Made by a program: the position numbers and the translations under genes. Shown piece by piece: positions 12,710 to 52,530 of a DNA stretch of 64,000 nt (position 1 is its first letter; every line of letters begins with the position of its first letter). The stretch covers positions 1 through 64,000 of the forward strand of contig JAUWNJ010000007.1 in assembly GCA_030612725.1 (NCBI GenBank), given 5' to 3'. The notes under the pieces were generated by a model. The model saw nothing but the letters and a program-made list of their open reading frames with translations. It ran no database searches and was not told the origin of the DNA. Origin of the DNA: Planctomycetales bacterium. GTDB lineage: Bacteria > Planctomycetota > Phycisphaerae > SM23-33.

Positions 12710-13761
12710 ACTTTGCGGACCTATCGCAACACCTGGCGCAATGGCAGAAGTCCCCGGGGCAATTCTCCGACGTCGTAATCTCCTCCCGCGTTCGCCTTGC
12801 GAGGAATCTCGCGGGGATGTCGTTCCTGAGCCGGTGCAGCGACAGGCAGGTCCGCGAGATTTCCGAACGTCTTCGCACGGTGCTGACCGGCGGCGCTCTG
12901 GGTGAAGGGGCGTTTTACGTCGATATCGCCGAAGCCGACCCGCTCGAAAGCCAACTGCTGGTCGAGCGACACCTCATCTCCCGCCAGCACGCCGAAGGGA
13001 ACGGACCTCGCGGAGTGGCCTTTACGCCCGACGAAACCGTCGCCGTTATGGTCAACGAAGAAGACCACCTCCGTATGCAGGTTCTCGCCGGCGACCTGCA
13101 ATTGGAAAAATGCTACGAGCGCATCTGCCAACTCGACGAGAAATTGGAAGAGCATCTGACGTTTGCCTTTTCAAGCCGATTCGGATACCTGACGGCCTGT
13201 CCGACGAATGTCGGAACGGCCTTGCGCGTCAGCGTCATGCTGCACCTTCCGGCATTGAAGATGACCGGTCAGATAGAGAAGGTTCTTCGGTCGGCGCGCG
13301 ACATGCACCTTGCCGTGCGCGGGCTTTACGGTGAGGGGACCGAGGCAATCGGCGACCTGTTCCAGGTCTCCAACCAGACCACGCTCGGAAAAAGCGAAGA
13401 GCAGATCGTCAGTGATTTCAGGGAGCAGATCGTTCCGGGCATCATTGATTACGAACGCAGCGCACGGGCGGCGCTGCTGGAGAATCGTCGGGCAGCCCTG
13501 GAAGACCGCGTCTGCCGGGCACAAGCCGTGATGAAATCGGCAAGACTGATCTCCTCCGAGGAAGTGCTGTACCTTATAAGCCAACTGCGATTGGGATTGA
13601 GCCTGAATATAATTAGTGATATAACGGTCGAAACGCTCAACAAATTGTCGCTGCTGACCCAGCCGGCACATCTCCAAATGCACCTGGGCCGGAGCATGTC
13701 GCCGTCGGAACGAGGCGAGGCAAGAGCGGAATTGATAAGGGAAAAATTAGGCGAGAAATAA
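12706..13761 (+). CDS. mcsB: Protein arginine kinase McsB
   Basis: 351 residues with a GTG start five bases after GAGGAG, overlapping mcsA. It has the ATP:guanido phosphotransferase core: VVISSRVRLARNLAG, NEEDHLRMQ, CPTNVGTALRVSVMLHLPAL with the catalytic-region cysteine at C165, and VSNQTTLGKSEEQIV. McsB phosphorylates arginines on proteins, which in Bacillus marks them for ClpCP. The lack of the N-terminal small-molecule guanidino domain and the McsA partner separate it from creatine/arginine kinases. It acts in the cytoplasm. How the system is used in this lineage is not known from the sequence. Confidence 0.92.
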   Translation: MNFADLSQHLAQWQKSPGQFSDVVISSRVRLARNLAGMSFLSRCSDRQVREISERLRTVLTGGALGEGAFYVDIAEADPLESQLLVERHLISRQHAEGNGPRGVAFTPDETVAVMVNEEDHLRMQVLAGDLQLEKCYERICQLDEKLEEHLTFAFSSRFGYLTACPTNVGTALRVSVMLHLPALKMTGQIEKVLRSARDMHLAVRGLYGEGTEAIGDLFQVSNQTTLGKSEEQIVSDFREQIVPGIIDYERSARAALLENRRAALEDRVCRAQAVMKSARLISSEEVLYLISQLRLGLSLNIISDITVETLNKLSLLTQPAHLQMHLGRSMSPSERGEARAELIREKLGEK

Positions 13762-13781
13762 TGTCTGAACAGTAAAGCGTT

Positions 13782-13948
13782 GAAATCCGAAATACGAATC
13801 TCGAAATACGAAACAATATCGAATGACCAAAATTCAAATTCTCAAAACACGGCTGATGCCTCAATTAGATATTGATGCACTTGTTTAGAACATTTGAATT
13901 TAGGATTTTGAATTTGTTTCGTATTTCGTATTTCGGTATTCGGATTTC
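13782..13948. repeat. Large imperfect inverted repeat of AAATACGAA-type units
   Basis: The left arm begins GAAATCCGAAATACGAATCT at 13782 and the right arm ends CGTATTTCGGTATTCGGATT plus TC at 13948; arms run about 65 bases each and are made of GAAATACGAA and AATTCAAATT units. The loop is about 30 bases. It fills the gap after mcsB. Confidence 0.8.
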
Positions 13949-13982
13949 CTGAAAGAAGGTACCTCGCGTCATAGCGGTTGAG

Positions 13983-14819
13983 GTGAATCCAAAGATGGTC
14001 AAATTAGGCACAATAGCGGCAATCGGATTCGATGAGTTTGACCCGCCGGAATGGCTGGGATGTTACCGACAACTAGGCTGCGAGGTCGTCCAGGCGTATC
14101 GCAACCAGGCCAAGTCGATCTCTCTCGAACAGATGCGCGACGCCATCGCCGCCGGTGGTATGCCCTGCGACAGTCTGCACGGTGTCTTCGGCGAGCAGTT
14201 CGACCCGTCCGCCCCGGACGAACAGGCCAGACTCTTCGCGGTCAATACCTTCAAACGAGAGGCCGAACTGGCCGACGCGCTCGGCGGCAAACTGGTCGTG
14301 GTACACTGCGCAACTATCCGAGAGAACGGCGTCCCGCCCGAAGAACGTGCCTGCCGCATCGAACAACTGAAAAAATCCATCGCCGAACTGGGCGCATTCG
14401 GAACCGGAGCCGGTATCACCTTCGCATTCGAGAACATGCCAGGCTACCACGCCATCGGATCGGACGTCGCCGAACTGGCCGGCATCCTGACCGAAGTGAA
14501 CGCAGCCAATACCGGGATGTGCTTCGATTGCGGACACGCCAACATGGTCGGCGATCCGGTCGAAGCCGTCGTTGCAGCCGGCAGTACAATGATATACGCG
14601 CACATCTCCGACAATTCAGGCAAGGGCGACGACCACGAGATGATAACTCGCGGTACGATCGACGCCGAAGCGATGACCGTTGCAATGCACAGCACCGGAT
14701 ACGACGGAACATTCATGCTCGAAGTATTTCACCCAGCCGACCGCATCCGCAAACTAATCGACGAAGGACTGGCAGAACAACTCGCAAAACTCATCGACCT
14801 GGCAAATGGAAAGAAATAG
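13983..14819 (+). CDS. Sugar phosphate isomerase/epimerase-like TIM barrel
   Basis: 278 residues from a GTG at 13983, or 274 from the ATG at 13995; neither has a strong ribosome-binding site. It has the xylose-isomerase-like/AP-endonuclease-2 TIM-barrel pattern with metal-binding residues in LVVVHCA, FAFENMPG, GMCFDCGHANMVG, YAHISDN and a late EVFHP. Such enzymes isomerise or epimerise sugars or related hydroxy-acids using a divalent metal. Substrate is not visible. It stands alone between repeat elements. Confidence 0.8.
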   Translation: MNPKMVKLGTIAAIGFDEFDPPEWLGCYRQLGCEVVQAYRNQAKSISLEQMRDAIAAGGMPCDSLHGVFGEQFDPSAPDEQARLFAVNTFKREAELADALGGKLVVVHCATIRENGVPPEERACRIEQLKKSIAELGAFGTGAGITFAFENMPGYHAIGSDVAELAGILTEVNAANTGMCFDCGHANMVGDPVEAVVAAGSTMIYAHISDNSGKGDDHEMITRGTIDAEAMTVAMHSTGYDGTFMLEVFHPADRIRKLIDEGLAEQLAKLIDLANGKK

Positions 14820-14855
14820 TAGTCAGTAGTCGGTAGCCAGTAGTCAGTAAAAACA
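14819..14855 (+). repeat. TAGTCAG short-unit tract
   Basis: AGTAGTCAGTAGTCGGTAGC and further AGTAGTCAGTAA units begin within two bases of the stop codon of the preceding gene. Only one arm is visible. Confidence 0.7.
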
Positions 14856-14863
14856 GCGGGTGG

Positions 14864-14888
14864 CGTGGTCGCGGTGTTTGTGACCACG
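14864..14888 (+). terminator. Candidate hairpin after the TIM-barrel gene
   Basis: CGTGGTC at 14864-14870 pairs with GACCACG at 14882-14888 around an 11-base loop, followed by TTTG. The stem is short, so this is weak. Confidence 0.35.
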
Positions 14889-14982
14889 TTTGTGCTAAAG
14901 AATTGGTTTGAGAAGCCCACAAATCAGCCGTAGAATCCCACATTCGACAATCGTATCTCATTGGGAATTGAAAGGGGACCGT

Positions 14983-15417
14983 ATGAAAGTTACATGCGAA
15001 AAGTGCGGGGCAACTCTGACAGCGCCAGACGATGCAAGCGGTAAAACAGTCAGATGCCCGAAGTGTAAACACGCGTTCATAGTGGATGTCCTGGAATTGA
15101 CGGAAGATGTTGGAGCAGCACCTTCTCCGACTTCCGCATCTGCTTTGGATGAATTAGCAGGTGCAGCGCAGCAATCTTCTCCCGCTGGTCCGCCAATCCA
15201 GCCTCAGTCACCAGTACAATCCTCAGCGCCAGTTATGATCACTCCGCAAAGACGGTGCGCCCAGTGCGGTTTCCAGGGTTACATGCCGAAGAAGTGGGAT
15301 TCGTGGGTTGTGCCGGTTGCCATCATTGTTGCAATTTTCACCTGCGGCTTAGGGTTGCTAATCCTTCTTATTCCTAAAAAACACCAGTGCCCTCAGTGCG
15401 GTGCCATCTTTGAGTAG
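14983..15417 (+). CDS. MJ0042-type zinc-ribbon membrane protein
   Basis: 144 residues from the ATG at 14983, which has AAAGGGGA upstream. The N-terminus is an MJ0042-like zinc finger: CEKCGATLTAPDDASGKTVR then CPKCKHAF. A low-complexity linker rich in serine, proline and alanine follows, then CAQCGF, a transmembrane helix (VVPVAIIVAIFTCGLGLLIL) and a last CPQCG at the C-terminus. The first zinc finger is very similar in layout to the next gene's, so the two are likely duplicates. Function unknown. Confidence 0.75.
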   Translation: MKVTCEKCGATLTAPDDASGKTVRCPKCKHAFIVDVLELTEDVGAAPSPTSASALDELAGAAQQSSPAGPPIQPQSPVQSSAPVMITPQRRCAQCGFQGYMPKKWDSWVVPVAIIVAIFTCGLGLLILLIPKKHQCPQCGAIFE

Positions 15418-15477
15418 TTATCTGCCTAAGAAAAAGCGAGATATGGGATTATTAATCAAGTTGTTGGGGAGACGATT

Positions 15478-16365
15478 ATGAAAGTCAAATGTGTCAATTG
15501 TGGGACAACATGGAGTCTTTCCGATCCATCGGTAGGCAAAGTCCTGAAGTGTGGCAAATGTGGAACAAAATTCGTGCTGGAGGTCGTCCGCTATCTCGAC
15601 GAGCCAGTCAATTCTGTTGAACCATCCAAGCCAAGGAGCGTTACCCCACAGGCTGCATCGCCTATGGACGAATTGATTACGGCTACCAAGCAACCCGCAC
15701 ACGGTTACCGGCCCGCACGCACAACTCGCTACAGGTCGGGTTCCTCGTATCGTAAGGGGATTCCGAAATGGATTATCCCTGTCGCAGTAGTTGTGGTTCT
15801 GGGCGTCGGCTTGCTGATTGTTTGGAGGACGGGATTGCTGAGTAGAGTGGGCCTTCCATCGGGAACTACAGACATCCGAAAAGTAATTTCCAATCCAGAG
15901 GCCTACGCTGGCCGAACATTGGTAAGCCGTGCTATATGTGAAGGGAGCGGGTATTATCGAGGGATAGGTGTTACCGGAGGTATGCCGCTAATTCTTATGA
16001 CATCCCCTCAGATGGAAGAAAAGGAGATGAAGATCGCAATGGCTGTTGGGGAACATCAGTCTGTGATGATAAAGTACCGAATCCACGACAAGGCAATGTT
16101 TGCCAAGATAAAAGCGAAAGAGAAGGCGGAAGATAGGGCGGCGGAGGCAGCGGTGAAGGCGGAACGGGCAAGAGGGGGCACAGCTGAACTCTCTGAACTC
16201 CCTCCTGGGGTTGTATTGGACCCAGGGCCTGATGCTTCCCCTCAGGTGAGAGCGGCCTATGAAGCACGGAGACAGAAAGATGCCGAAGCCGAGGCTGCCG
16301 CAAAAGAAGAGGTGAATGACCCGATGGACTATCAAGGAATTCTAATCGATATTTGGATACCATGA
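15478..16365 (+). CDS. MJ0042-type zinc-ribbon membrane protein with coiled-coil-like tail
   Basis: 295 residues, start after GGGGAGACGATT. The N-terminus CVNCGTTWSLSDPSVGKVLK followed by CGKCGTKF is an MJ0042-like zinc ribbon. One transmembrane helix follows (WIIPVAVVVVLGVGLLIVW), then a domain with IRKVISNPEAYAGRTLVSRA, which recalls OB-fold or stress-response domains seen after such anchors, and a charged helix rich in Lys, Glu and Ala (KIKAKEKAEDRAAEAAVKAE). It lies 60 bases after a shorter paralogue. Role unknown. Confidence 0.7.
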   Translation: MKVKCVNCGTTWSLSDPSVGKVLKCGKCGTKFVLEVVRYLDEPVNSVEPSKPRSVTPQAASPMDELITATKQPAHGYRPARTTRYRSGSSYRKGIPKWIIPVAVVVVLGVGLLIVWRTGLLSRVGLPSGTTDIRKVISNPEAYAGRTLVSRAICEGSGYYRGIGVTGGMPLILMTSPQMEEKEMKIAMAVGEHQSVMIKYRIHDKAMFAKIKAKEKAEDRAAEAAVKAERARGGTAELSELPPGVVLDPGPDASPQVRAAYEARRQKDAEAEAAAKEEVNDPMDYQGILIDIWIP

Positions 16366-35487: not shown

Positions 35488-36507
35488 CTAACCCGTTTTT
35501 CGGGCCTCTTCGAACAGGGCGAGCGTATTTTCAAGCGGAACGTCGGCTTGGATGGTAATTCCCGGTTCAAGGATGTATCCGCCGCCGGCGCCCATTTCAC
35601 TCTTGAGTTTCCTGACCTCGTCGCGGATCTGCTGCGGCGTGCCGCTCGGCAGCAGGTCCTGCGTCCTCAACCCGCCGCAAAGGGTCAGGTCCGCCCCGAA
35701 GTCCCGCTTGATCTGGTAAATGTCCATCGCCTCAGGCTGGATGGGATTGAGGATGTCGATTCCCACTTCTATCATGTCGGGGATGATTGGCGTGATGTTT
35801 CCGCAACTGTGGTGGAACGTATATCGGTCGTGCTTTTTGGCCAGTCCGTAAATCTCAGCCAACAGCGGTTTTATAAGCCCCCGCCAGTGGTCCGGCGAGA
35901 TGAGCATCGCTTTCTGCGAGCCGTAGTCGTCGCTGAGCGCGATTCCGTCAAAGGCGAACCGTTCGAAGAGTATCTCCATCGTCGCGAGGATGTAATCGGC
36001 TATGCCCCGCAGTAACTCCTCGACGAAACGCCGGTTCAGCGCCACGTCCAGTAGAATGTTTTCCATTCCCCGCATGAACGTCGCCCGCTCCCAGAGGTCG
36101 CCGACCCAGATGATGGTGAAGTGTTCCTTGTTGTCCCGGCACCACCGGCCCAGGTTCTCGAAACGATCTTCAGCCGCCGGGTCGGGGAAGGTGTAGCCGG
36201 ACAGGTTCGCTTCTGTGAGCGGCGGGCCTACGGGAGTGCCTCGGTCAATGTCGCTGTTTGCCCAGAGAACGCCGAACTCATCGGTTGTCCTCTCGCCGTA
36301 CTCGGCGGGAGAAGCGTAAAGAGGCCTGGCGCCGATGCACCACAGCGTACGAATCGGGAAACCGAGCGCCTCTTTGATATCGTCGGTCCCGAAATGTTCC
36401 TGAAGGGCCGAGATCACCGGCGGGCAAAACGTGGCGTTATACGGAACAGCCTCGGTCTGCTCGTGGGCGATAGTCGCCTTTATCCAGTCCCGATCTTTGC
36501 ACATCAT
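35488..36507 (-). CDS. Uroporphyrinogen decarboxylase-family protein (MtaA/CmuA type)
   Basis: About 340 residues from the ATG at 36507; a further upstream ATG at 36582 adds a cysteine-rich stretch that is not conserved in such proteins. The UroD-like TIM barrel shows TDEFGVLWANSDIDRGTPVG, FDGIALSDDYGSQKAM, RYTFHHSCGNITPIIPDMIE and LCGGLRTQDLL with GGGYILEPGITIQADVPLEN. The HxCG (HHSCG) region is typical of methyltransferase-type relatives that bind zinc. It does not look like a heme enzyme. A second family member is at 50333-51472. Confidence 0.85.
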   Translation of the reverse strand: MMCKDRDWIKATIAHEQTEAVPYNATFCPPVISALQEHFGTDDIKEALGFPIRTLWCIGARPLYASPAEYGERTTDEFGVLWANSDIDRGTPVGPPLTEANLSGYTFPDPAAEDRFENLGRWCRDNKEHFTIIWVGDLWERATFMRGMENILLDVALNRRFVEELLRGIADYILATMEILFERFAFDGIALSDDYGSQKAMLISPDHWRGLIKPLLAEIYGLAKKHDRYTFHHSCGNITPIIPDMIEVGIDILNPIQPEAMDIYQIKRDFGADLTLCGGLRTQDLLPSGTPQQIRDEVRKLKSEMGAGGGYILEPGITIQADVPLENTLALFEEARKTG

Positions 36508-36719
36508 GTTGTCTGCATCCCGTATCAGGCCCCCGCTAAAACACGAGCATACCATATTAGAACAACCGCCTCCGAGAGTCAAAGTTCGAACCGGCGAAGG
36601 GTTTTTGTTGACGTTTCCGCAACACGACCCTAGATTATAGACTTTCGACGGGGCTGATATGGATTCGAGTGCGTGTAAGTGACGTTTGCAGAGAAGGCCT
36701 GTCGCGTTAGGAGTCGCCT

Positions 36720-40067: not shown

Positions 40068-40721
40068 ATGAAATCCTGCAAAACATTCGGCCTCTTACTT
40101 GTTGTTGTGGCTATCTGCGGTTGCCGCCCCCCTTCGAATGAGAAGCAACTGGTTACTCGCGCAGGTGTTCTGGGGTTTCGCATCGCGCCGACGCTGCCGG
40201 GAACAGCCCACGACAAAACGTTGGCCTTGACCAAAACCGAATACAAAACCTACATGAGCCGACTGGATGAGCAGGGGCCACCGACCACAGGAAACGCAAA
40301 TGATAAGTACTTGTGGTTCCCCGTTCACAACAAGTGTCGAAGTATTGCCCCCGGTCTGGTCGTCGGTGAACACGCCGGTAAGAAATACGTTTTGCTGTAC
40401 AACCAGACAGGCTACACGATGCTGAACGATCCCGGCAACCCGTCATGGTCAGTCTCGTCGGCCTACCGGGTGCGCGACGCGATGGGAAAACCGGCGGTGG
40501 GTTTCAATTTGGACAAACGCGGAGCCAAACTCATGGTCCGACTGACAGGCGCGCACAAGGGCCATTTTATAGCCGTCCTGTTGGATGACGAAGTGTATTC
40601 GGCACCTGTTCTCAGATCGACAATCTACCACCGAGGCGTTATCGAAGGCAATTTCACTGTCCAGGAAGTTGATGAACTTATCCGCATACTGGAGGGCAGA
40701 CCGCTACCGTCATCGAACTAA
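40068..40721 (+). CDS. Lipoprotein with a SecD-P1-like domain
   Basis: 217 residues with a GGGGAAT ribosome-binding site. A lipoprotein signal ends at CGC ([11 protein letters not shown]). From about residue 100 to the end it resembles the SecD P1-like periplasmic head: [52 protein letters not shown] and [20 protein letters not shown]. The same module sits inside the 2,804-residue protein at 41419-49833. Its last codons (PSSN) lie inside a duplicated purH tail read in another frame, so its C-terminal end may have been set by the duplication. Confidence 0.75.
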
Positions 40722-40815
40722 GCGGGGGCGCGAAAGACTCCGACGTCATCGCCCGCGCAGACGAACTGAACATGGCAATGATCTTCACCGGAACCAGACA
40801 TTTTAATCACTGATT
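40707..40815 (+). pseudogene. Duplicated 3' end of purH
   Basis: This stretch repeats the last 105 bases of purH (39923-40028). In the last 66 bases only three differ, at third-position or conservative sites, and the final 39 are identical. Read in the purH frame it gives [20 protein letters not shown] and ends RHFNH with a stop. It lacks the rest of the gene and a start. It lies immediately after (and overlaps) the SecD-P1 lipoprotein gene. Confidence 0.88.
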
Positions 40816-40852
40816 CGCGGGACCTGACGAAATAAAGAATCCTTGATGCGAT

Positions 40853-40884
40853 AAGCCCAACCATTCGAATGGCTGGGTTTCTTT
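40853..40884 (+). terminator. Intrinsic terminator after the duplicated purH tail
   Basis: AAGCCCAACCATTC pairs with GAATGGCTGGGTTT (12 of 14 matches, the other two G-U) followed by CTTTT. It probably ends transcription from purH and the lipoprotein gene. Confidence 0.75.
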
Positions 40885-40944
40885 TACACACTCACGCGAT
40901 GCTTTCCCAGCACCCTCCTTCACGTCAAAAATTTCCCAAAATTG

Positions 40945-40986
40945 ACGATAATTATCGTTGACTTTTGACGACAGTTGTCGTACATA
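40945..40986 (+). promoter_or_regulatory. BlaI promoter with paired operators
   Basis: A perfect palindrome ACGATAATTATCGT (40945-40958) and a near-perfect one ACGACAGTTGTCGT (40968-40981) have centres 23 bases apart. Between and over them lie TTGACT (40958-40963) and TACATA (40981-40986) at 17-base spacing. This is the pattern of an autoregulated BlaI/MecI-type operator overlapping a promoter. The rest of 40816-41032 is empty apart from the terminator. Confidence 0.7.
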
Positions 40987-41032
40987 AATGATACGAACAC
41001 TTCGCCTATGGATTTATTTTGGAGAATCTGAC

Positions 41033-41422
41033 ATGGCAAAACGAAAGGCAAAACGCCCTACCGACGCAGAACTCGTGATCCTGAATGCCTTGTGGCAGCA
41101 AGGCCCGAGCACGGTCCGACAGGTCAATCTGACGCTGAACGAAACCCGCCGGACAGGATACACGACCACGCTCAAGCAGATGCAGGTAATGACCGGAAAG
41201 GGTTTGCTGACGCGGGATGAATCACGCAGGCCTCAAGTCTATCGACCGGCCTTCTCGCAGGAGAAAACCCGCAGGCAACTGGTCGAGCACCTGATGGACG
41301 GCGCCTTCGGCGGATCGGTGAGCAAACTCGTCCTGCAGGTCCTGCGAACAAAAGATGTCTCGGCAAGGGAACTTTCACGGGTCGAAGCACTTCTAAATAA
41401 ACTGGAAGGAGAGCGGAAATGA
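41033..41422 (+). CDS. blaI: BlaI/MecI-family repressor
   Basis: 129 residues from the ATG at 41033, with GGAG upstream. A winged-helix DNA-binding domain fits BlaI/MecI: PTDAELVILNALWQQGPSTV, ETRRTGYTTTLKQMQVMTGK GLL, and DVSARELSRVEALLNKLEG. In the classical system the partner BlaR1 senses a signal and causes BlaI proteolysis, releasing transcription. It overlaps the BlaR1-like gene (ATGA). Two operator palindromes lie upstream. Confidence 0.92.
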   Translation: MAKRKAKRPTDAELVILNALWQQGPSTVRQVNLTLNETRRTGYTTTLKQMQVMTGKGLLTRDESRRPQVYRPAFSQEKTRRQLVEHLMDGAFGGSVSKLVLQVLRTKDVSARELSRVEALLNKLEGERK

Positions 41423-44400
41423 CCGACCTTCAAAACATCCTGACGAATCCGCTGATGCAGCGTGCCGGGTGGGCGCTGCTGCATTTTTTCTGGCAGGGAG
41501 CAGCCGTAGCGGCCTTGCTGGTTGTGGCGATGCTGCTTCTTCGCCGCCGGTCGCCGAACCTCCGATACGCGATTGCATGTTCTGCCCTTATGCTGATGCT
41601 GGCGATGCCCGCAGCCACTATGTGGCTGGTCAAACCAGTCGGTAGGCTGGGCCGGAGCGAAGCGGAGGCCCACCTTCTGCCTTCAAGGACGGAAAAGGTG
41701 GGGCTTGCTCCGCTCGACCCAGCCTACTCTTCCGAAATTGATAGGCTGGGCCGGAGCGAAGCAGAGGGGCACCTTCCTTATATAGACAAACGGCAGAAAC
41801 AAGGTGGGCCTCCGCTTCGCTCCGACCCAGCCTACACCGCCGAACCTGCCGAACTCGTCGAACCGCCCCAGCCGTGGCGCGAACGGGCCGGTGAAACCGT
41901 CAGACCTGCCTTGCCGTGGGTTGTATTAGGATGGCTTATCGGCGTACTGGTCCTGTCGGCCTGGCACGTGCGGGGATGGATTCAGGTTCAGCGCCTGCGG
42001 CGGGTGGGTGTCCGCCCGGTCGGTCGGGAAATTACCGACGTTCTCGCCCGCTTGTGTAAGCGGCTCGGTATCGGAAGGGCGGTGCGGGTGGTCGAATCGG
42101 CCTTGGTTCGTGTGCCGACGGTCGTCGGGTGTCTCAAACCCATAATCCTCCTGCCGGCGTCGGCCTTGACGGGCCTGACGGCGGAGCAACTCGAAGCCAT
42201 ACTCGCCCACGAATTGGCCCACATCCGCAGGCACGATTATCTTATCAACCTGCTACAGACAGCCGCCGAGACGCTTCTGTTCTATCATCCTGCCGCCTGG
42301 TGGGTCTCGGCCCGCATCCGGGCAGAGCGCGAGAACTGCTGCGACGACCTCGCCATCGCAGCCTCCGGCCAACCCCTGGTCTATGCCCGCGCACTGACAA
42401 CCGTTGCGAAACTCTCCCAACCCCAGCCGCGCCTAGCCGTCGCAGCCGATGGCGGCGGAAAATTCCTCGCCCGCATCCGCAGAATTGTAGGCCAACCCAC
42501 CAACGACGCCAGCCGACGAGGACGATGGCTCGCAGGAGCATTCACACTCCTGACCGTCCTCGCCATCGTCATAACCTTGGGCGTCTCCTGCGTCACAGAC
42601 AAACCCCCAACCGCCCGGGATAACGACGAATCAGCCACCACGCAGAAAAGATCGGTCGGAGAATCCTTGCAGCGAGACTTAACCGACAATTTCGAAGACG
42701 GGGCCATCGACACTACCGTCTGGGTGACTGGCGGCGCTAAGCGGGGATCGTTCAAGCGAACACCAAAAGGCGTAGGGCATTGGACGTTTTCGTGCAAGGA
42801 GATCCGGGGTGAAGACGGCCATCTGCAACTCAGGGTGGCCGGACCGCGATCTGGCAACACGTACGGGGCTGAGGCATGGGCTCGCACGAAGCGGGACTTC
42901 AACGACGGTCGAACTTGGATGATCAATTTCTGCTGGCAGGCGGATGTTGCCATCAAAGGCCACTATGACTATTACCATATTCAGATCACAGACGGAAGCA
43001 TTCCTGATATCGGATACATTCACTGGTCCTTGAATGACAACCCTGGCACAGTGGACTTTCTCACGAGTTACGATAGCAGGGGCAAGTCAAGAAACGGGAA
43101 GCCGCTTATGCAGGGAACCCCGAAACGACACTGGTCCATACGGATCGATCCCAAGGGGACTGCTGTCCTTTACGACGGTCCATCCGGGACAGGCAAGATC
43201 GTCTCCAGAGGAAAACTGGATTCCAAGAAGCCATGGCACATTCGTTTCATGGTCCTCGACGCAACCAGCGCGGGTTTTCCCGGCGGCGATACGCGGTTCA
43301 AGTTGTACCGTTTCACTTCCTCGGTGGGTCGTGCCACTTCGCCCAGCAGGTACACGTTTCAACAGGGCGTAGATGGCTACACAGGGACTGCCGACACGTC
43401 ATTGATACACTGTGAGCCGGATACGTCATACGGTAGCGACACGTTTGTTGAAGCAGACGGATCCACTGTCGGTGATACCATACACGATGAAGGGCTCGTT
43501 CGATTTGACAACATATTTGGCAGTGGCGGGATTCCGTATAGGGCAAAAATTGTCTCTGCAACACTGACTCTGCAGATGATGCAGCCCGGAGCTGCCGGTT
43601 CCAAGGTGTACAGGATGTGCCGACCATGGACTGAGGACGATACCTGGAATGACTGGGGCGGGGGAATATTACCGGACGGTATCGAAGCGAAAAAGACACC
43701 AGAGGTGACATTGGGGCAGATCAGGACCGGGACTCTAGACATTGATGTGACATCCAGTCTGCAGGCCTGGTCGTCCGGAATCACCGACAACAACGGATGG
43801 GTGTTTATCAATGGCCCCAACCAGTCTGACGGATACCAGTTCAGATCATCCGAGTATTCCATCAGATCGAAGCGACCCAAGCTGACAGTAATCGTCCTGG
43901 AAGCCTCCTGCGCCGCCGACAAGACCCGGGCTTACACTACACGCCACGCCACGAAGCCAGCGGGCAATCTTTCACCGGCTGACAAAACAGGTGCTGCCAA
44001 AAAGGAACTTCTTGCAGAAGTGGTGGCATTGGCACGCGCAGCCATCGCGTTGCCGACAAGGGATGTAGGCCCCATCAAGAGCAGGCAGAACCCCACCGGC
44101 CTGGACCTCTCACCGATCCTGAAATTCAGCGGACAGAAAAAGGATTTCGATGACTTCACGAAGGACCACCGTTTCTTTGAGCGGGATGTCGAAAAACTGG
44201 TCCGCCGGAAGAAGACCTGGGCCTTGTGCGCCCTGCTGGACCATCCCAACGTGGGCGCCAAGATTCGCGCGGCAAGGGGGCTGGTCAAACTGGCCGATCC
44301 GTCCAGTGCGGCTGTACTGCTGGCTGCGGCCAAGAGCAACAACTATCCCGTGGAGGGAAGCGAAGAAGCATCGCTGCACTCTAACTACCGCCGGACGTTG

Positions 44401-47400
44401 AAACAGGGTCTGGAGAAGATCACGGGGCTTTCGCTCACGCCAAAGGGCCTCAAGGTCATTACCTACCTCAAGCCGGGCCAGGGCAAGGTCATCCGCTCCG
44501 AAGACGACCCGTCGCGCTTCAAGGAGTACGTGGACTTCAAGAAGGTCGAAAACTGGCTGCGTCAAACGTTCCTACCCGCACCGACCACGAAGTCAGGAAA
44601 CAAAGCAGAGGGTACGACATGGTCGCAGACAGTAAATGGTCTCCAGGCGCGCATAACCCTCAAGAGGTCGGCGGTGTCCAACGGGACGCCGATCATCTCG
44701 ACTTACCTGGAGTTGCGAAACGTATCCAATCTCGCCGCCCCCATGAGGCTGGCGTGGGCGAGCGAGAAGATGAAGTTCCGCGTCATCGACGCCAATGGAC
44801 GCGAATTACCCGCAGCTATGGGTAAAGGCAATTGGCGGTCCTTGGGCAAGCAGAACCTGGTGATTCCGAACCGTGGTACTCTGTCCTTCGACATCTCCAG
44901 CCGGGGCTTGGGCATTCCCGGCGACCAGGCGGGTCTGATCGACCTGGGTTCGACATACAATTGGGTCTTCAAGCACAAAGAAAAGGACTACTACCTCCGG
45001 GCGGTTCTTAAAATTCCCGAAGACAAGCACGACAGAGATCGCCGGAGTTGGTGGCATGGTCAAATCGAGATGCCCCCTGTCCGGGTTCCGCTCAAGCCTG
45101 AGCCTGTGGACCCGGCGAAACTGGGCGAGCGGATCCGGAAGTTGGGCGGCAAGATGCTTGCGACCGACTTCGCCGCCTCGGAAAAGGCAGTTCGGGCCTT
45201 GTCGCTTATCGACGATGAACGTGTCATTCCCTGGTACCTCAAGGCGATGGACACAAACAGGTATGGCCTCAAGTTCGCCGCCCTGGACAGGCTCAGCAGG
45301 TTCAACAGTGATGAAGCGCTTCGCGGCCTGAAAAAAGGGATGACCACCCGAGGTGCCGACATCGGCAATTGCACGACAGATGCGGTAGCCGATCAGATGG
45401 CAGACAACATTCGCCATACAGCGGCGGCCGCTCTGGCGCGAAGCCCGCACCCGGAGGCGAGGAATTTGCTCCTGTCCATGCGGAACGATCCCAGTAGCGC
45501 GGTGCGCATAACGGTGCTGCATGCGCTGGGCCGGATGGATTCGGCGGAGTCCCTGATGCTGCTGAAGAAGATGAGTAAGGACCATGATGAAGGCGTCCGC
45601 AAGGAGGCATTACGGTATCTGAAGCTGCGAGAATCCCCGCCCGCCACGCAGCCGGCTTGGGGAAAGGTGGTGAAAGGCCTGCGGGTCTCAATCCGGGCAG
45701 AGAAGAAACGCTTTGCCAAAGGTCAGCCAGTTCTCGTTCACTGGAAGATCGAAAACGTCGGGAAAGTTGACCGGACGATCATCTGGCATAAACTCCACTA
45801 CTCGCCCGTCCTTTTCGATATTGCCCACAAGGGAGGAAAGAAATACCTCAATTGTTTTGACTCTCGCCGCCTCTTCATCGGCGCTGTTCCTTCGCCACCC
45901 GAGAAAATCGTGCTCCGCCCGGGCCGGTCAAAGGAAGCGACATTCGACCTTCGATACTTCATGGGCATGGGCACTACTCTCACCGGCGTGTTGAAGGTTA
46001 CCGGCCTTTACGCCCCAAAGGCTCCACAAGCACAGGCGGCATACTTCATAGGACAGCCAAAATACAAGGATGCGGTCTCGGATCGCATCGCTTCTAACGA
46101 GATTGAGATCGTCATTACCGAAACCGCCACGAAGCCGGGGGCTGGGTCAGACTCGAAGCCCCCCGTTGCGGTCCACTCTTCGGATGCGGTCCTGGAATCG
46201 CTCAACCTTACTGTGCGGAAGGACATCCAAGAACTTATCGACGCGGTCGCCCTTCCCGGTAAGGGGCCCGTCAATCTCCCTGCCCCTACTATTGCTGTCA
46301 GGGCGGGTGTGGCCACAGAGGTTTTCGGTGCGTGGGGGTCTTACAAGAATCTTGGGTCCGGGAAGACGAATGCTGACTTCAGCCGAGCCGTCCAGGAACT
46401 CATCAGGGTAAAGGCCGTCTGGTGTATCAGCACGGGCCTTTGTCATCGTAACAAAGACGTTCAGATCCGTTGCGCCCGGGCGTTGGGTGATCTGAAAGGA
46501 ATCCGTCCCGCGCGGTTCCTGCTGACAGTTGCCCATGCCAACGCGGTGTACGTGGAGGGAAGCGAATCAGCAAGCCTTCATGGAATTCTTCAACACGCCT
46601 TGACCAAAGCCCTTAACAGAATCCTCGGAACGTCTGTTCACCTCAAGGAAGGCCAGGATCCGGAGGGGCTTGAGGCCGGCATCAAGGTCTGGAGCGCGGC
46701 GCTGGCGAACAAGGAAAAGACTGACTATGCGCCTCTTGTGAAGGTCCTTCAGGACTGGCCGGCCAAGGGTGTCTATGATATTCGGCAGAGTCCTTTCTTC
46801 CAGGCCCTGGCAATCCTGGCTCGTCGGCAGAAGCTCAATAATAAGGACTACCTTCCGTGCGGGTTCGTCCCAGCCGCCAATGGGCGGGTCAAGGTGTTTC
46901 GCTCCGGAAATGAAGAGATACTGGTCGCCATCATAGGCAACACCCCGATGACGCACCCGGGGACTTCCGCTCAGCAGATCATCCTGCTGGACAAGGCCGG
47001 CAGGATCCTCGACAGCCTCGGCTGCCGGATTAACAGCCGATATGGCCTAATCAGCACCGTTTTCAAGGACAAGCCCGATCCCGACGGGGCGCGGATGGTA
47101 ATCACATTCCCGCCGAATCGTTGGCATAATTGGCACAGGATCATCTACCGGGGCAAGACATACACCTTCCGGGAGGATGAGCGGAATCAGCCTCCCGAAT
47201 GGGACCGGAAGGGCCTTTGCCGCATCGGTATCAAGAACCGCAGGCTGGTCGTCCTCTTCCCTACGTTGTGGCCCAGACCGGGTGGAAGCAAACTGGAATT
47301 CCGCCTTGTGGCGTTCAAGCCAGGGTCTAAGCGAGGGCCGGTTCTGGAAAACGTCGAACGCCGCATTAAAGAACTGACCACCCGCGGTCCGAAGGCTGCA

Positions 47401-49833
47401 AACAATCTGGTCGATGGGTTCCGATGGTTCGAGATTCAGTGTGAAGCGCCCAGCCTGTCCGTGGTGGCTAAATATGGAAGGCGGGAATATATCCTTCTGT
47501 CCAACGTGCAGCGTCAAATAATGCTTTCGCATTCAACCGATCCGAAGGGCAAGGCGTGGGGCCTGAAACGCGTCTATCTCAGCAAGGACGCCCGTGGCCG
47601 ACCGGCTGTGGCGTTTGTGCTCGACGCAGCCGGCGCAAGGCTCTTCCAAACCTTTGCCGAAACCTACAAGAACCGTGTCCTGGCCATTCTGGTGGATGGG
47701 AAGGTTCTCTCCACCAGGATTGTTCGCACTGAAGGTTCCAAGCAAGGCGTTATCGAGGGAAATTTCACCGACCAGCAGGCGAGAAATCTCGTCGAGGCCA
47801 TTAAGGTTGGCATGATGAATGATCCAAAGAGCCTTGGCGCACGCGATCTGAACCCCGCCACGCAGCCGGGGGGCATCAAGTCCTCCAAGCAAGCCAAGAT
47901 ACCTCTCGATGTGGGCAAGCAGATTGAACGGCTGTTCTCCTCGAACCCCAAGACACGAGCAGTGGCCGCCATGGAACTGGGCCAGATGGGTGACAGGGCC
48001 GCCCCTGCAATCCCGCACCTGATCGCCCTGCTGGGGGACAAAACCAAGTTTGACACCCGCGATGTGTATAGAAAGACACCGCTAATACCAACGTTCTTCC
48101 GCGTCGGGGGCTGGTCATTCGGAGGGTACGTAGCGGCCGACGCCACGGACGCACTTGCGAAGATCGGCAAGGCGGCCGTCAAGCCCCTCATTGCGGCGCT
48201 AAAGGACAAAAATGCGTTTGCCCGCATGCACGCCGCGCGGGCGCTGGGGGGGATAAAGGACAAAGAGAGTGTAGAGGCGCTCTGCGAGGTTCTGAAAGAC
48301 GAAGACCCCGGCGTCCGGTCCGCGGGCGCAATTGCTCTGGGGGAAATTCGTGACCCCCGTGCGGGGAAGCCGCTTGCGGGTCTGCTGTCAGACAAGGTTT
48401 ACCGTCCAAGGAAGGACGCCATCGAAGCATTGGTGAAGCTAGGCAAGTCGGGGACGGGACCCTTGCTCGAAGCAATGCGGCACCCCTCTACCGCGCAATG
48501 CGCCGCCCGGGTCCTCGCGAAGACAAAAGACGCACAGGCACTTGACCCGTTGGTCACAGCTCTGAAGGATGCGGACCCCCTGGTTCGCAGGGGCGCTGCA
48601 ATCGGGCTGGGGGCACTGGGAGACCGCCGGGCGGTCAAGCCTCTGACCGAGCTGCTTCTCGAGGATCCCGACCCATACGTCCGAGCCGATGCCGCTCAGG
48701 CCCTATGCTCGATTGGCGGCGTGCGGCTGGAGGTCTGGAAAGCGGCATTGACGGACAGCGAATCTCAGGTGCGAATATACGCCGTGAGAGCATTAGGGAA
48801 GGTCGGCGCTACCGAAGCGCTGATCGGCGCGCTCAAGGACAAGAGTTCAAGCGTTCGTCACCAGGCAATCTCGATGTTGTCCACAGGAGGGGATCGGGAC
48901 GCCGTACCGCCACTGATCGCGATGCTTGGAGACAAGCGTGAGAACAAAAGCATTAGAGGAAATGTGGCTGGTGCTTTGGGGTGGTTGCATGATCGCCGGG
49001 CCGTCAAGCCGTTAATTTCGGCGCTGAAGGACGAACATGCCATTGTTCGTTCGAATGCAACCTGGGCACTCGGCCGGATGAAGGATCCGCAGGCTGTTGA
49101 TCCGCTATGTCGTGTTCTGAGCGACAAGAAGCCCGATATCCGCGTCCGGGCTGCGATCGCCTTGCGGGACATACGTGACAAGCGGGCGGTTGCGGCGCTG
49201 GTCAAGGCCTTGAGAGATCCCGACTGGGAAGTCGCTCTCCGCGCCGCCGACGCCCTGGGAAGGATCGGAGATCCCAAGGCCGTCGAACCGCTGATCTCAG
49301 CGCTGAAGGACGAACTCAAGAACCCCCGTAAGGTCAGAATTGTCCGCGAACCGTACAGGGATACCACGGACGATTTGATCTGGATGGGAGAGGGGGACGA
49401 TACGGCAGTGGCGATAGCAATGGTCCAGGCTCTGGGTGCGATCGGAGACAAGCGGGCGACCGCCCCACTTCTCACTGCACTCAAGGACAAACGATGGCGC
49501 ATCCGATGGGCAGTCACCCTGGGACTGGGGAGAATCAAAGACGGCGCCGCCGTCATGCCGTTGATAGCTGCGATGAAAGACGAACACTCCTCTGTTATAA
49601 TCTCGGCTGTGGAATCGCTCGGTCTGATGAAAGACCCGCGTGCTATAGAGCCTCTAATCGCCGCTTTGAAAGACGACCGTCAGGACATCCGCTCGAAAGC
49701 GGCGACGGCGCTGTACTTGATCACCGGCCCAAACCCGAATCAGACCTGGGAGGAATGGCAGAAGTGGTGGAAGGAAAACAGACACAAGTGGCCCAAACCC
49801 GCCACGCAGCCGGCGACAAAACCCTCGCCATAG
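41419..49833 (+). CDS. Giant BlaR1-like M56 sensor fused to multiple extracellular domains and HEAT repeats
   Basis: 2,804 residues. Residues 1-395 form a BlaR1-like M56 metallopeptidase membrane module: helices near 12-70 and 160-182, HELAH at 264-268 with the third ligand in RAERENCCDDLAI, and a final helix WLAGAFTLLTVLAIVITLG. From about 430 to 640 a concanavalin-like domain follows; 644-830 is a DNRLRE-type domain (TLQMMQPGAAGSKVYRMCRP, DIDVTSSLQAW). Then Ig-like and helical regions, a SecD-P1-like segment at about 2047-2131, and around twenty PBS-lyase/HEAT repeats at 2165-2780. ATQPA/ATKPG linkers occur at module joints. A palindromic repeat encodes residues 75-139. It is translation-coupled to blaI, so it is likely its signal partner, though the inducer is unknown. 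Confidence 0.82.
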   Translation: MTDLQNILTNPLMQRAGWALLHFFWQGAAVAALLVVAMLLLRRRSPNLRYAIACSALMLMLAMPAATMWLVKPVGRLGRSEAEAHLLPSRTEKVGLAPLDPAYSSEIDRLGRSEAEGHLPYIDKRQKQGGPPLRSDPAYTAEPAELVEPPQPWRERAGETVRPALPWVVLGWLIGVLVLSAWHVRGWIQVQRLRRVGVRPVGREITDVLARLCKRLGIGRAVRVVESALVRVPTVVGCLKPIILLPASALTGLTAEQLEAILAHELAHIRRHDYLINLLQTAAETLLFYHPAAWWVSARIRAERENCCDDLAIAASGQPLVYARALTTVAKLSQPQPRLAVAADGGGKFLARIRRIVGQPTNDASRRGRWLAGAFTLLTVLAIVITLGVSCVTDKPPTARDNDESATTQKRSVGESLQRDLTDNFEDGAIDTTVWVTGGAKRGSFKRTPKGVGHWTFSCKEIRGEDGHLQLRVAGPRSGNTYGAEAWARTKRDFNDGRTWMINFCWQADVAIKGHYDYYHIQITDGSIPDIGYIHWSLNDNPGTVDFLTSYDSRGKSRNGKPLMQGTPKRHWSIRIDPKGTAVLYDGPSGTGKIVSRGKLDSKKPWHIRFMVLDATSAGFPGGDTRFKLYRFTSSVGRATSPSRYTFQQGVDGYTGTADTSLIHCEPDTSYGSDTFVEADGSTVGDTIHDEGLVRFDNIFGSGGIPYRAKIVSATLTLQMMQPGAAGSKVYRMCRPWTEDDTWNDWGGGILPDGIEAKKTPEVTLGQIRTGTLDIDVTSSLQAWSSGITDNNGWVFINGPNQSDGYQFRSSEYSIRSKRPKLTVIVLEASCAADKTRAYTTRHATKPAGNLSPADKTGAAKKELLAEVVALARAAIALPTRDVGPIKSRQNPTGLDLSPILKFSGQKKDFDDFTKDHRFFERDVEKLVRRKKTWALCALLDHPNVGAKIRAARGLVKLADPSSAAVLLAAAKSNNYPVEGSEEASLHSNYRRTLKQGLEKITGLSLTPKGLKVITYLKPGQGKVIRSEDDPSRFKEYVDFKKVENWLRQTFLPAPTTKSGNKAEGTTWSQTVNGLQARITLKRSAVSNGTPIISTYLELRNVSNLAAPMRLAWASEKMKFRVIDANGRELPAAMGKGNWRSLGKQNLVIPNRGTLSFDISSRGLGIPGDQAGLIDLGSTYNWVFKHKEKDYYLRAVLKIPEDKHDRDRRSWWHGQIEMPPVRVPLKPEPVDPAKLGERIRKLGGKMLATDFAASEKAVRALSLIDDERVIPWYLKAMDTNRYGLKFAALDRLSRFNSDEALRGLKKGMTTRGADIGNCTTDAVADQMADNIRHTAAAALARSPHPEARNLLLSMRNDPSSAVRITVLHALGRMDSAESLMLLKKMSKDHDEGVRKEALRYLKLRESPPATQPAWGKVVKGLRVSIRAEKKRFAKGQPVLVHWKIENVGKVDRTIIWHKLHYSPVLFDIAHKGGKKYLNCFDSRRLFIGAVPSPPEKIVLRPGRSKEATFDLRYFMGMGTTLTGVLKVTGLYAPKAPQAQAAYFIGQPKYKDAVSDRIASNEIEIVITETATKPGAGSDSKPPVAVHSSDAVLESLNLTVRKDIQELIDAVALPGKGPVNLPAPTIAVRAGVATEVFGAWGSYKNLGSGKTNADFSRAVQELIRVKAVWCISTGLCHRNKDVQIRCARALGDLKGIRPARFLLTVAHANAVYVEGSESASLHGILQHALTKALNRILGTSVHLKEGQDPEGLEAGIKVWSAALANKEKTDYAPLVKVLQDWPAKGVYDIRQSPFFQALAILARRQKLNNKDYLPCGFVPAANGRVKVFRSGNEEILVAIIGNTPMTHPGTSAQQIILLDKAGRILDSLGCRINSRYGLISTVFKDKPDPDGARMVITFPPNRWHNWHRIIYRGKTYTFREDERNQPPEWDRKGLCRIGIKNRRLVVLFPTLWPRPGGSKLEFRLVAFKPGSKRGPVLENVERRIKELTTRGPKAANNLVDGFRWFEIQCEAPSLSVVAKYGRREYILLSNVQRQIMLSHSTDPKGKAWGLKRVYLSKDARGRPAVAFVLDAAGARLFQTFAETYKNRVLAILVDGKVLSTRIVRTEGSKQGVIEGNFTDQQARNLVEAIKVGMMNDPKSLGARDLNPATQPGGIKSSKQAKIPLDVGKQIERLFSSNPKTRAVAAMELGQMGDRAAPAIPHLIALLGDKTKFDTRDVYRKTPLIPTFFRVGGWSFGGYVAADATDALAKIGKAAVKPLIAALKDKNAFARMHAARALGGIKDKESVEALCEVLKDEDPGVRSAGAIALGEIRDPRAGKPLAGLLSDKVYRPRKDAIEALVKLGKSGTGPLLEAMRHPSTAQCAARVLAKTKDAQALDPLVTALKDADPLVRRGAAIGLGALGDRRAVKPLTELLLEDPDPYVRADAAQALCSIGGVRLEVWKAALTDSESQVRIYAVRALGKVGATEALIGALKDKSSSVRHQAISMLSTGGDRDAVPPLIAMLGDKRENKSIRGNVAGALGWLHDRRAVKPLISALKDEHAIVRSNATWALGRMKDPQAVDPLCRVLSDKKPDIRVRAAIALRDIRDKRAVAALVKALRDPDWEVALRAADALGRIGDPKAVEPLISALKDELKNPRKVRIVREPYRDTTDDLIWMGEGDDTAVAIAMVQALGAIGDKRATAPLLTALKDKRWRIRWAVTLGLGRIKDGAAVMPLIAAMKDEHSSVIISAVESLGLMKDPRAIEPLIAALKDDRQDIRSKAATALYLITGPNPNQTWEEWQKWWKENRHKWPKPATQPATKPSP
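41642..41834. repeat. Two palindromic elements inside the BlaR1-like coding sequence
   Basis: Each copy begins TAGGCTGGGCCGGAGCGAAG and ends GACCCAGCCTAC: copy 1 at 41642-41727 and copy 2 at 41742-41834. Inner arms pair GGAGCGAAGCGGAGG...CACCTT with AAGGTGGG...CTTCGCTCC. They are read in frame as RLGRSEAEAHL and RLGRSEAEGHL peptides plus VGLAPLDPAY and GPPLRSDPAY, lengthening the loop between membrane helices. Confidence 0.85.
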
Positions 49834-50332: not shown

Positions 50333-51472
50333 TCACCCCCCGAAGTTGGTCGCCAGGCGGACCATCGTCTCGTAATTCGCCATGGTCTTCGGCGAGATTT
50401 CCCGCCCGATGGGGCATGCCGACGGCATCAGGACAAAACCGCGTCCCTGCCCGTCAGTTCCTTCACGCAGGGATTTAACGACGACTTTCTCGAAATCGGC
50501 AGGGGTCAGGTTCTCAATGTCGCTGATCTCGATATTTCCGAACAGAACCATCTCCTGCCCGTATTCACGCCGGACATCAATAAGTTCGACATCGCCTTGC
50601 GGTGGCGGCTCGATCGGATCGAGACCCGCAGCACCCATTTGGGCAATCATCCCAAGCACCGCTTTCAGCCGGCCGTGACTGTGAATACGGGCGAAGCCAC
50701 CGTATTTGTGAATAATTTCCACCATGGGCTTCGTGTATTTAACCACGTACTGCTCGAACAGGCTTGGCGGGAGGTACGGTTCGGTGGCGTACTCAGGCCC
50801 GTAAATTCGCCAGAGATGGCCTGGAAACGCCTTGGCGACTTTCTCCGTCTGCTCGTACATGTACATGGCGTGTTTCTCAAGCAGTTTGTGAAACAATTCC
50901 TGTTCCGTCAGTGCGAAGATCGTGTATTCACCCATGGAAAACAGTTCGGCAGCCGCACATAGCGGATCGCCCGTATCGACCATGATGATGCCGCGATCTC
51001 CAAGCCTCTCATCCTCTACCGCCATATCGGCCACGTCCGGCTCGTAAGCGAAGACCTCGTCGGGCAATTCCAGGTAAGCCTTGGCGTCGTCGGTGTCTTT
51101 GAGCAGATGCTCCAGCGCCCAGTCGGTGTCCGTATCGGGAGAGCGGCGGGACAGAGAGGTCATCTCTCTTCCGCCGACACGGAGCGTAGTTCGCGCGAAA
51201 CGCGAGCCGTCCTTCTCGTACTGCTCGGTCGTGAAGAATTCGCCCCGGCAGTTGCCCGGAGCCGGCTCCGTTTTCGCACTGCGCATGCGAATAAGATCAG
51301 TCTGCTCCTCGGCCAGTTGCAGCAACGGCCTCCAATCCGGCGAATTATATACGTTGAATTCGTCAGGATTAGTCGGATCCACGTCGAACCCGCCGATTTC
51401 GTAGAAATTCACGGCAGGCCGATCCACCGGTTCACCACGTAAGGTAGCCATCAATCTTTCACGTCGAGTCAT
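50333..51472 (-). CDS. Uroporphyrinogen decarboxylase-family protein
   Basis: 379 residues from the ATG at 51472; the longer frame to 51544 overlaps a neighbouring gene and lacks conserved sequence. Its UroD-like TIM-barrel fold shows RRERLMATLRGEPVDRPAVN at the start, GIIMVDTGDPLCAAAELFSM, YGGFARIHSHGRLKAVLG and ELIDVRREYGQEMVLFGNIE, with a C-terminal CPIGREISPKTMANYETMVR. Such proteins in anaerobic Planctomycetota are often methyltransferase-related rather than heme enzymes. It converges on the shortened DapB-like gene three bases away. Confidence 0.85.
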   Translation of the reverse strand: MTRRERLMATLRGEPVDRPAVNFYEIGGFDVDPTNPDEFNVYNSPDWRPLLQLAEEQTDLIRMRSAKTEPAPGNCRGEFFTTEQYEKDGSRFARTTLRVGGREMTSLSRRSPDTDTDWALEHLLKDTDDAKAYLELPDEVFAYEPDVADMAVEDERLGDRGIIMVDTGDPLCAAAELFSMGEYTIFALTEQELFHKLLEKHAMYMYEQTEKVAKAFPGHLWRIYGPEYATEPYLPPSLFEQYVVKYTKPMVEIIHKYGGFARIHSHGRLKAVLGMIAQMGAAGLDPIEPPPQGDVELIDVRREYGQEMVLFGNIEISDIENLTPADFEKVVVKSLREGTDGQGRGFVLMPSACPIGREISPKTMANYETMVRLATNFGG

Positions 51473-51501
51473 AATTACATTTTGCCTTCCTGAAATTCGC
51501 C

Positions 51502-52530
51502 CTATTGCCCCGGCCTCACACGCGCCAAAACCCGCCTGGCCCATACAACGTCGCCGGTGGGAAATGACTGCGGGGCGTACTGCTCGTTGACAGGTATGAG
51601 GTGGACCGTATCACCGGCGCGGCGGAAGACCTTGCAGGTAACGCCAATCTGCCCGGAAAGTTGAACCACCGCCGCAGACCCGTCCGACGCGGAATCCGAG
51701 GCTGAACATATCACCACGTCCCCGTGGCGAATGGCCGGCGACATCGAATCCCCGTCAATGCGAACAGCGAAGGCGTCGGGATGCTTGTGCTTAATCGAAC
51801 CGGCGACAACGAATTCGGCAGGGGAGTCATCGACCGGATCGGTCATGGTGATTAGCTGGGCGGACTGGTCGCCTTTGCCGCTCTCGTCGGTCGCCACGGC
51901 GACGATAACCCGACCGCCGGAGCGTCCGGCAAAGCGTTCCACCAGGTCGGAAAGAACCGTTACGCCGGCAGCATCGTCTGAATTCTCCCAGAACTGCGGA
52001 ACGCCAGCCGCCGACCGACCCAGAATCGGTATCCAGTCCCGCTCCAGATGATCGGCACTGCTCTCGAAGAGTCCTACGGACTGCGAAGCGGCGCTTCGCT
52101 GCGCAGCACGAGACGACTCGCCCGTCGCTTCAATGCTCTCTACCGCTTCCGCTTGTGCCTCATCGGGACAGGGTTTCGCCGACCAGGACAACGATTCTGC
52201 CAAAATATCCACGAATGCCATCAGAGGCCCAGATGCGTCGGGATGGTCGCCCAGGAGTTTCGCAATCCGCCCGATGGCTGGATGGTCAGCCGGTATCGAC
52301 GGGGACAATTCCGCTCCCGTCAATAGCCAGCGCAAATCCACACCTCCCGCATCGGCGATTTTTACCAAAATCTCCGCCGGAGGGATTCGCCCGCTTTCGT
52401 AGTAGTTATACGTCGATGGAGAAATGCCTAACTGCTTTGCAAAGCGGACTTTACCACGATCACCGTGCAGCTCGCGCCGAACCTGCTCCACTCGTCGGCA
52501 TATTTCAGGATTGGAAGGATTATTTTGCAT
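51502..52530 (-). CDS. XRE-family repressor with S24 (LexA-like) peptidase domain
   Basis: 342 residues. N-terminal helix-turn-helix (GKVRFAKQLGISPSTYNYYE) and a C-terminal S24 self-cleavage domain with the catalytic serine in DGDSMSPAIRHGDVV and lysine in VTCKVFRRAG. The middle is an Ala/Ser/Glu-rich linker. Such phage-like or SOS-responsive regulators cleave themselves on DNA damage. It is divergent from a small ORF and the downstream methylase; the intergenic region carries a candidate promoter. It may control the restriction-modification module, which is inference. Confidence 0.85.
   Translation of the reverse strand: MQNNPSNPEICRRVEQVRRELHGDRGKVRFAKQLGISPSTYNYYESGRIPPAEILVKIADAGGVDLRWLLTGAELSPSIPADHPAIGRIAKLLGDHPDASGPLMAFVDILAESLSWSAKPCPDEAQAEAVESIEATGESSRAAQRSAASQSVGLFESSADHLERDWIPILGRSAAGVPQFWENSDDAAGVTVLSDLVERFAGRSGGRVIVAVATDESGKGDQSAQLITMTDPVDDSPAEFVVAGSIKHKHPDAFAVRIDGDSMSPAIRHGDVVICSASDSASDGSAAVVQLSGQIGVTCKVFRRAGDTVHLIPVNEQYAPQSFPTGDVVWARRVLARVRPGQ

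Follow-up and report, generated by a model that had tools for sequence, protein, structure and literature searches.

A BlaI-type repressor gene with paired operators and its giant M56 partner in a Planctomycetales bacterium

The blaI-M56 gene pair and its operators

The 64,000-nt stretch of contig JAUWNJ010000007.1 analyzed here (the window) contains a gene for a BlaI-type repressor followed on the same strand by a gene for an M56 (BlaR1-type) protein of 2,804 residues (Table 1). G and L labels below denote other genomes and loci compared, with G000 being the window's own genome. The two genes overlap by the ATGA at 41419-41422, as noted in a first-pass annotation whose coordinates and list of modules proved correct with the sole exception of one module termed lectin-like. 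The repressor matches PF03965 (Penicillinase_R) at 79.7 bits against a curated cut-off of 22.6 (E 2.6e-22) and is 87-94% identical across four close relatives. Its earliest in-frame ATG is at 40988; the likely start is instead at 41033, since relatives start at the same point and GGAG precedes this position. Structures matched in the PDB were 2g9w and 1sd4; the closest solved relative, 2g9w (E 5e-6), is M. tuberculosis BlaI.

Table 1. Coordinates of features at the blaI-M56 locus (residue numbers refer to the M56 protein)
Feature	Position	Strand	Basis or remark
Putative operator 1, ACGATAATTATCGT, perfect 14-bp palindrome	40945..40958	.	sequence and conservation
Putative operator 2, ACGACAGTTGTCGT, 12/14 symmetric	40968..40981	.	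sequence and conservation
Sigma-70-like promoter TTGACG-N16-AATGAT, overlaps operator 2	40965..40992	+	consensus match, not proof
blaI-type repressor, 129 residues	41033..41422	+	PF03965
M56 (BlaR1-type) receptor/protease with giant predicted exterior, 2,804 residues	41419..49833	+	domain profiles
M56 membrane core, residues 1-405	41419..42633	+	profiles, alignment, model
Predicted exterior loop 1, between transmembrane helices 2 and 3, with three in-frame palindromic repeat copies	41640..41835	+
Rare, plausibly exported module ('lectin-like'), residues 421-634	42679..43320	+	fold unconfirmed
DNRLRE domain, residues 659-824	43393..43890	+	57 bits, cut-off 34
Module of residues 1026-1430	44494..45708	+	relatives in signal-peptide/lipobox proteins without M56
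SecDF_P1_head-like domain, residues 2054-2132	47578..47814	+	E 5e-12
HEAT-repeat array, about residues 2238-2770, 11 HEAT_2 stretches	48130..49728	+
Probable lipoprotein with SecDF P1-head domain, neighboring gene	40068..40721	+	resembles M56 tail residues 1955-2155

Two palindromes that probably serve as operators precede blaI at a spacing of 23 bp, start to start, and the second overlaps the sole promoter-like match within 40722-41100. Twin operators at the same spacing stand before the orthologous blaI in G000, G001, G002, G003, and G025, in surrounding DNA that has diverged. Because the pair recurs upstream of blaI in all five genomes with a close orthologue (the window's own counted), its arrangement is more than chance. 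The first-pass proposal of two palindromic operators over the blaI promoter thus agrees with the coordinates, the promoter match, and the 5/5 conservation. More broadly, when 100 distinct blaI genes were inspected over the 150 bp on their 5' side, 67 had the pattern ACGA-N6-TCGT and 57 had at least two copies; one further blaI was skipped because its upstream DNA is missing. Among 40,000 control windows taken at random from the same loci, 1.2% contained the pattern in any number and 0.6% contained at least two copies. The blaI loci lacking it include several Planctomycetota, and the pattern at blaI is common, not universal.

Genes preceded by the same two palindromes were then counted in two sets of genomes. 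The paired pattern occurred at nine places in nine genomes among 60 relatives, every one before blaI-M56. In 392 genomes of the phylum, once overlapping hits were combined, the search yielded 19 places distributed over 18 genomes. Of these, 14 precede blaI-M56, four are inside reading frames (G290, G262, G531, and G299), and one precedes another gene. The searches share two places, and combined they comprise 26, with 21 before blaI-M56, four in frames, and one at the other gene. In these searches the paired operator is almost exclusive to the blaI-M56 operon, a relationship that is new here.

A BlaR1-type core and a mosaic tail

The M56 protease module called at first sight was confirmed by profile, motifs, and model. 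Peptidase_M56 covers residues 168-335 (102 bits against a cut-off of 31, E 4e-29) and includes HELAH at 264-268, and the HEXXH and EXXXD residues (H264, E265, H268, E305, and D309) together with R352 do not vary among the 54 cores that were aligned. Searched against the PDB at E<=0.01, the M56 profile matched S. aureus BlaR1 alone (E 6e-16). An AlphaFold2 (AF2) model of the core, with a mean predicted local distance difference test score (pLDDT) of 84, has four helices at residues 11-40, 46-70, 153-195, and 366-391, and its top six Foldseek matches are BlaR1 entries (8ext, 8exp, 8exs, 8exq, 8exr; E 5e-6 to 4e-4), with low template-modeling scores of 0.36-0.45 by query length. The NCBIfam model blaR1_generic covers the core only, at 90 bits against the 400 required. 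The core is predicted to have the BlaR1 membrane-core fold. BlaR1 is described, in PMC9834060, as having an N-out/C-out topology with the protease facing the cytoplasm and cleaving BlaI directly; by analogy, the same topology and cleavage would apply to the window protein.

The core is followed by a mosaic tail of about 2,400 residues. DNRLRE, the SecDF P1 head, and HEAT all exceed curated cut-offs, as anticipated by the first-pass annotation. In contrast, the lectin-like call was not confirmed: residues ~421-634 gave no Pfam match and, as a four-sequence profile, no PDB match at E<=1, and single-sequence AF2 of residues 419-840 reached a pLDDT of 31, which is unusable for the fold of 421-634. 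The further suggestion that the exterior reads cell-surface polymers is left unsupported, no sugar-binding domain having been confirmed. Few genomes have a relative of the 421-634 module (4 of 247 others sampled from the class), and because L202 carries one beside Laminin_G_3 domains, an exported beta-rich module is plausible. No class-D beta-lactamase, penicillin-binding, or transpeptidase family was detected in the tail with Pfam and NCBIfam at E<=0.1, in keeping with the original description of an operator-controlled BlaI and a BlaR1-type partner without a penicillin-binding exterior.

Parts of the tail also occur apart from an M56 domain. Residues 1026-1428 are 77-84% identical to part of a 2,422-residue frame without M56 in G002 (G002:C72), which has a signal-peptide-like stretch after its first Met; a protein with a lipobox in G009 is a weaker match. 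A G025 frame that stops after the SecD-P1 module matches residues 1572-2150 at 87%. It had been recognized at the outset that the sensor modules might be encoded separately in close relatives; this holds for residues 1026-1428 in G002:C72 and fails in that long-tailed M56 proteins recur in relatives. The four predicted transmembrane helices, the BlaR1 topology (PMC9834060), and the occurrence of a tail module in signal-peptide proteins together lead us to infer that the tail is on the exterior side. Two candidate motifs after the fourth helix were rejected: a strict lipobox (with its Cys where the helix ends on the outer side; VSC, YGC) was present in 0 of 97 proteins, and a signal-peptidase I motif (A/V-x-A) was present in 44 of the 97, where letter shuffling predicts 29, an excess that is too weak. 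At L123, a long frame with the 1026-1430 module (12934-15657) overlaps the last part of an M56 gene that is read in a different frame, a possible frameshift in a giant gene.

Replacement of the tail in place and distribution of the type

The gene order of G003 is that of the window, with identities of 76% for the PQQ-protein, 93% for purH, 87% for blaI, 74.6% for the M56 core, 83% for URO-D, and 75% for HTH/S24. In both G000 and G003 the locus is flanked by the PQQ-protein and purH on one side and by URO-D and HTH/S24 on the other. The G003 M56 frame is 1,304 residues long, and its tail differs from that of G000, being unrelated apart from HEAT; in G001 the tail begins with a carboxypeptidase-regulatory-like segment, and the contig stops at 983 residues. 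When 89 cores were compared, 13 pairs were at least 70% identical, three in the window's genus and ten elsewhere. Tails of the three genus pairs align over 0%, 0%, and ∼20% (HEAT only), whereas in the ten other pairs the alignment covers no less than 41% of either tail and in most cases more than 80%. The exterior was replaced in place while the core, repressor, operators, and flanks stayed, which is also new here.

To place these proteins among their relatives, 101 M56 frames in 100 loci were compiled (one contig is doubled, as L081 and L167; only frames with HExxH and a score of at least 60 bits were kept). BlaI is adjacent to 98 of the 101. The 87 tails with an intact C-terminal end range from 59 to 2,948 residues, and the commonest exterior families among 26 long tails are CarboxypepD_reg (11), LRR (4), secretin (3), and PQQ (3). 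M56 frames of 2,528-3,529 residues are present in G004, G008, G020, L129, L134, and L149. Since BlaI accompanies nearly every M56 frame and long tails are of many families, giant exteriors recur among planctomycetes and this one is not a single oddity; the singular arrangement suggested by the first-pass annotation gave way to non-penicillin-binding-protein (non-PBP) tails that are widespread on BlaI-linked M56 proteins. The arrangement is undescribed in the accessible parts of the literature searched (including PMC9834060, PMC12204202, PMC9045261, and PMC7593790), most subscription papers lying outside it. A possible same-strand gene of at least 120 residues begins within 150 bp past the M56 stop at 31 of the 81 M56 genes tested, and two-gene blaI-M56 operons are thus usual but not universal.

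Like S. aureus BlaR1-BlaI and MecR1-MecI, the window system combines a repressor of the BlaI family with palindromic promoter operators and a neighboring M56 gluzincin that has the HEXXH and EXXXD motifs, and its core is predicted to share with S. aureus BlaR1 four helices and an exterior C-terminal part. It differs from S. aureus BlaR1 in lacking a penicillin-binding sensor, in an exterior of about 2,400 residues in place of one domain, in a loop 1 rebuilt by repeat insertions, and in paired operators that are mainly at its own operon. No beta-lactamase or PBP2a-type gene, as would accompany the S. aureus system, was found among the scanned neighbors (the PQQ-protein, purH, the SecDF-P1 gene, URO-D, HTH/S24, and a methylase); the search for such genes covered these neighbors and not the rest of the genome. 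Other BlaI-M56 pairs with non-PBP tails, from Planctomycetota, Acidobacteriota, Bacteroidota, and Myxococcota, share the pair order, the core, and ACGA-N6-TCGT, but their tails stay similar at core identities of at least 70%, whereas those of the window's genus were replaced. M. tuberculosis offers the closest solved BlaI relative (2g9w) and likewise an M56 protein without a penicillin sensor. However, M. tuberculosis BlaR1 has no equivalent sensor domain according to PMC9834060, and the window protein has a very large exterior.

A proposed self-regulated receptor and its alternatives

We consider it somewhat probable that the pair constitutes a self-regulated BlaI-M56 receptor, in which the exterior governs BlaI cleavage and the main output is the operon itself. 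The twin operators, which overlie the promoter of the two-gene operon that encodes BlaI, would be occupied by BlaI dimers. Four helices would anchor the M56 protein in the inner membrane, with the zinc protease on the cytoplasmic side and the ∼2,400-residue tail outside. When the tail changes state, the last helix would transmit the change and free the protease to cut BlaI, and expression of the operon would rise, as in S. aureus BlaR1. Such a feedback loop would set the amount of the giant exterior protein, and its main output would be more receptor, because nearly all paired operators found are at blaI-M56. The exterior would be an exchangeable module, replaced in place on a retained protease, repressor, and operator pair. 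A stronger formulation is put forward tentatively: in this lineage the BlaI-M56 core with its twin operators would be a conserved feedback cassette, its exterior being exchanged in place between sister species, and would act as a receptor chassis that takes up exported modules and controls hardly anything other than its own synthesis.

Several observations weigh against the self-regulated receptor. Exterior loop 1 is filled with repeat DNA and modeled at low confidence; this loop contacts the sensor in BlaR1 (PMC9834060), and the signal relay may therefore differ from that of BlaR1. The three genus pairs share members and represent one lineage, not three independent cases, and the G001 tail in this contrast is cut by the contig end. 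S. aureus BlaI is cleaved at N-F, a position that aligns with Q-V in the window BlaI, so that cleavage specificity would differ. Single operator-like sites elsewhere are possible targets: with at most one mismatch to a degenerate palindrome, G000 has 18 distinct sites, two being the blaI pair, 12 in frames of at least 100 residues, and four outside such frames (C57:30347 exact; C9, C27, and C65 with one mismatch each). G001 has an exact single site at C186. Finally, paired operators at G438:C3:205298-205333 (L236) directly precede a gene for a probable exported beta-propeller protein; G438 also has an operator-bearing blaI-M56, and the beta-propeller gene is a candidate second target.

The G000 single sites and the G438 pair would be expected of a conventional sensor that controls a distant regulon through single or degenerate operators, its tail sensing an envelope or environmental polymer as first proposed, and tails with SLBB/Poly_export, LRR, and CarboxypepD_reg in relatives are compatible with such a role. 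This explanation is nevertheless doubtful: no second operator site was seen common to the five close genomes, and the lectin call is unconfirmed. A distant regulon operating through the four G000 sites was rejected, as these do not recur among the listed sites of sister genomes. The near matches G002:C270 and G000:C65 share the same conserved coding frame.

Alternatively, the tail may be cargo, with the BlaI-M56 core acting as the anchor and expression governor of fused exported proteins, holding the amount of exterior constant by sensing the membrane or secretion state, and with the exterior serving as a surface scaffold (HEAT, DNRLRE). Paired operators almost solely at the operon, tails swapped in place, the 1026-1430 module in signal-peptide or lipobox proteins without M56, and tails of up to 2,948 residues, far above the size of a small sensor, all favor cargo. 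However, in other lineages the tails on cores of comparable identity are still alike, which is the behavior expected of a dedicated sensor, and the domain at the same position in S. aureus is a ligand sensor (PMC9834060). We regard cargo as unlikely, while noting that it is about equal to the receptor in accounting for the closed loop and the swaps, and sequence alone cannot separate the two. That the 2,804-residue gene is an assembly or annotation artefact is highly improbable: the draft genome is in 65 contigs and the orthologue contigs of G001, G002, and G025 break within the gene, but a single open frame spans all module boundaries on a 139-kb contig of even guanine-plus-cytosine content, the G003 orthologue has the same gene order, and M56 frames of similar size recur in the six genomes and loci listed above.

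BlaR1-BlaI is taught as a beta-lactam switch. The present data point to a wider use of the protease-repressor pair, with a common operator grammar over several phyla and very different exteriors. Within one genus the exterior changes completely while flanks, repressor, operators, and protease are kept, which makes acceptance of new input domains by the membrane protease directly testable by domain swaps. That paired operators are so largely restricted to the operon hints at possible feedback loops controlling how much of a surface protein is made, instead of turning on resistance.

The repeat copies within loop 1 are at 41650-41673 (+), 41749-41772 (+), and 41804-41827 (-), with the core CGGAGCGAAGCGGAGNCCCAC. 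Allowing up to two mismatches, this repeat is dispersed in G000 (62 copies, control 1), G001 (60), G002 (20), G003 (12), and G025 (59), with none in G004, G017, or G020. Copies lie within the M56 gene of G003, not that of G001, and other palindromes are there in G002. Palindromic elements inside Rickettsia genes are similar in kind.

The SecDF P1-head gene between purH and blaI is a neighbor that does not necessarily belong to the system; it is present in G000, G001, and G002, and no copy was seen in the stretches of G003 and G025. G000 has just one further BlaI-M56 pair above cut-offs (L002 / G000:C43), which has an upstream region without the window-type operator and encodes a 707-residue M56 protein with a highly charged tail. 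Two minus-strand URO-D-family genes flank the region, one on each side (35488-36582 and 50333-51544).

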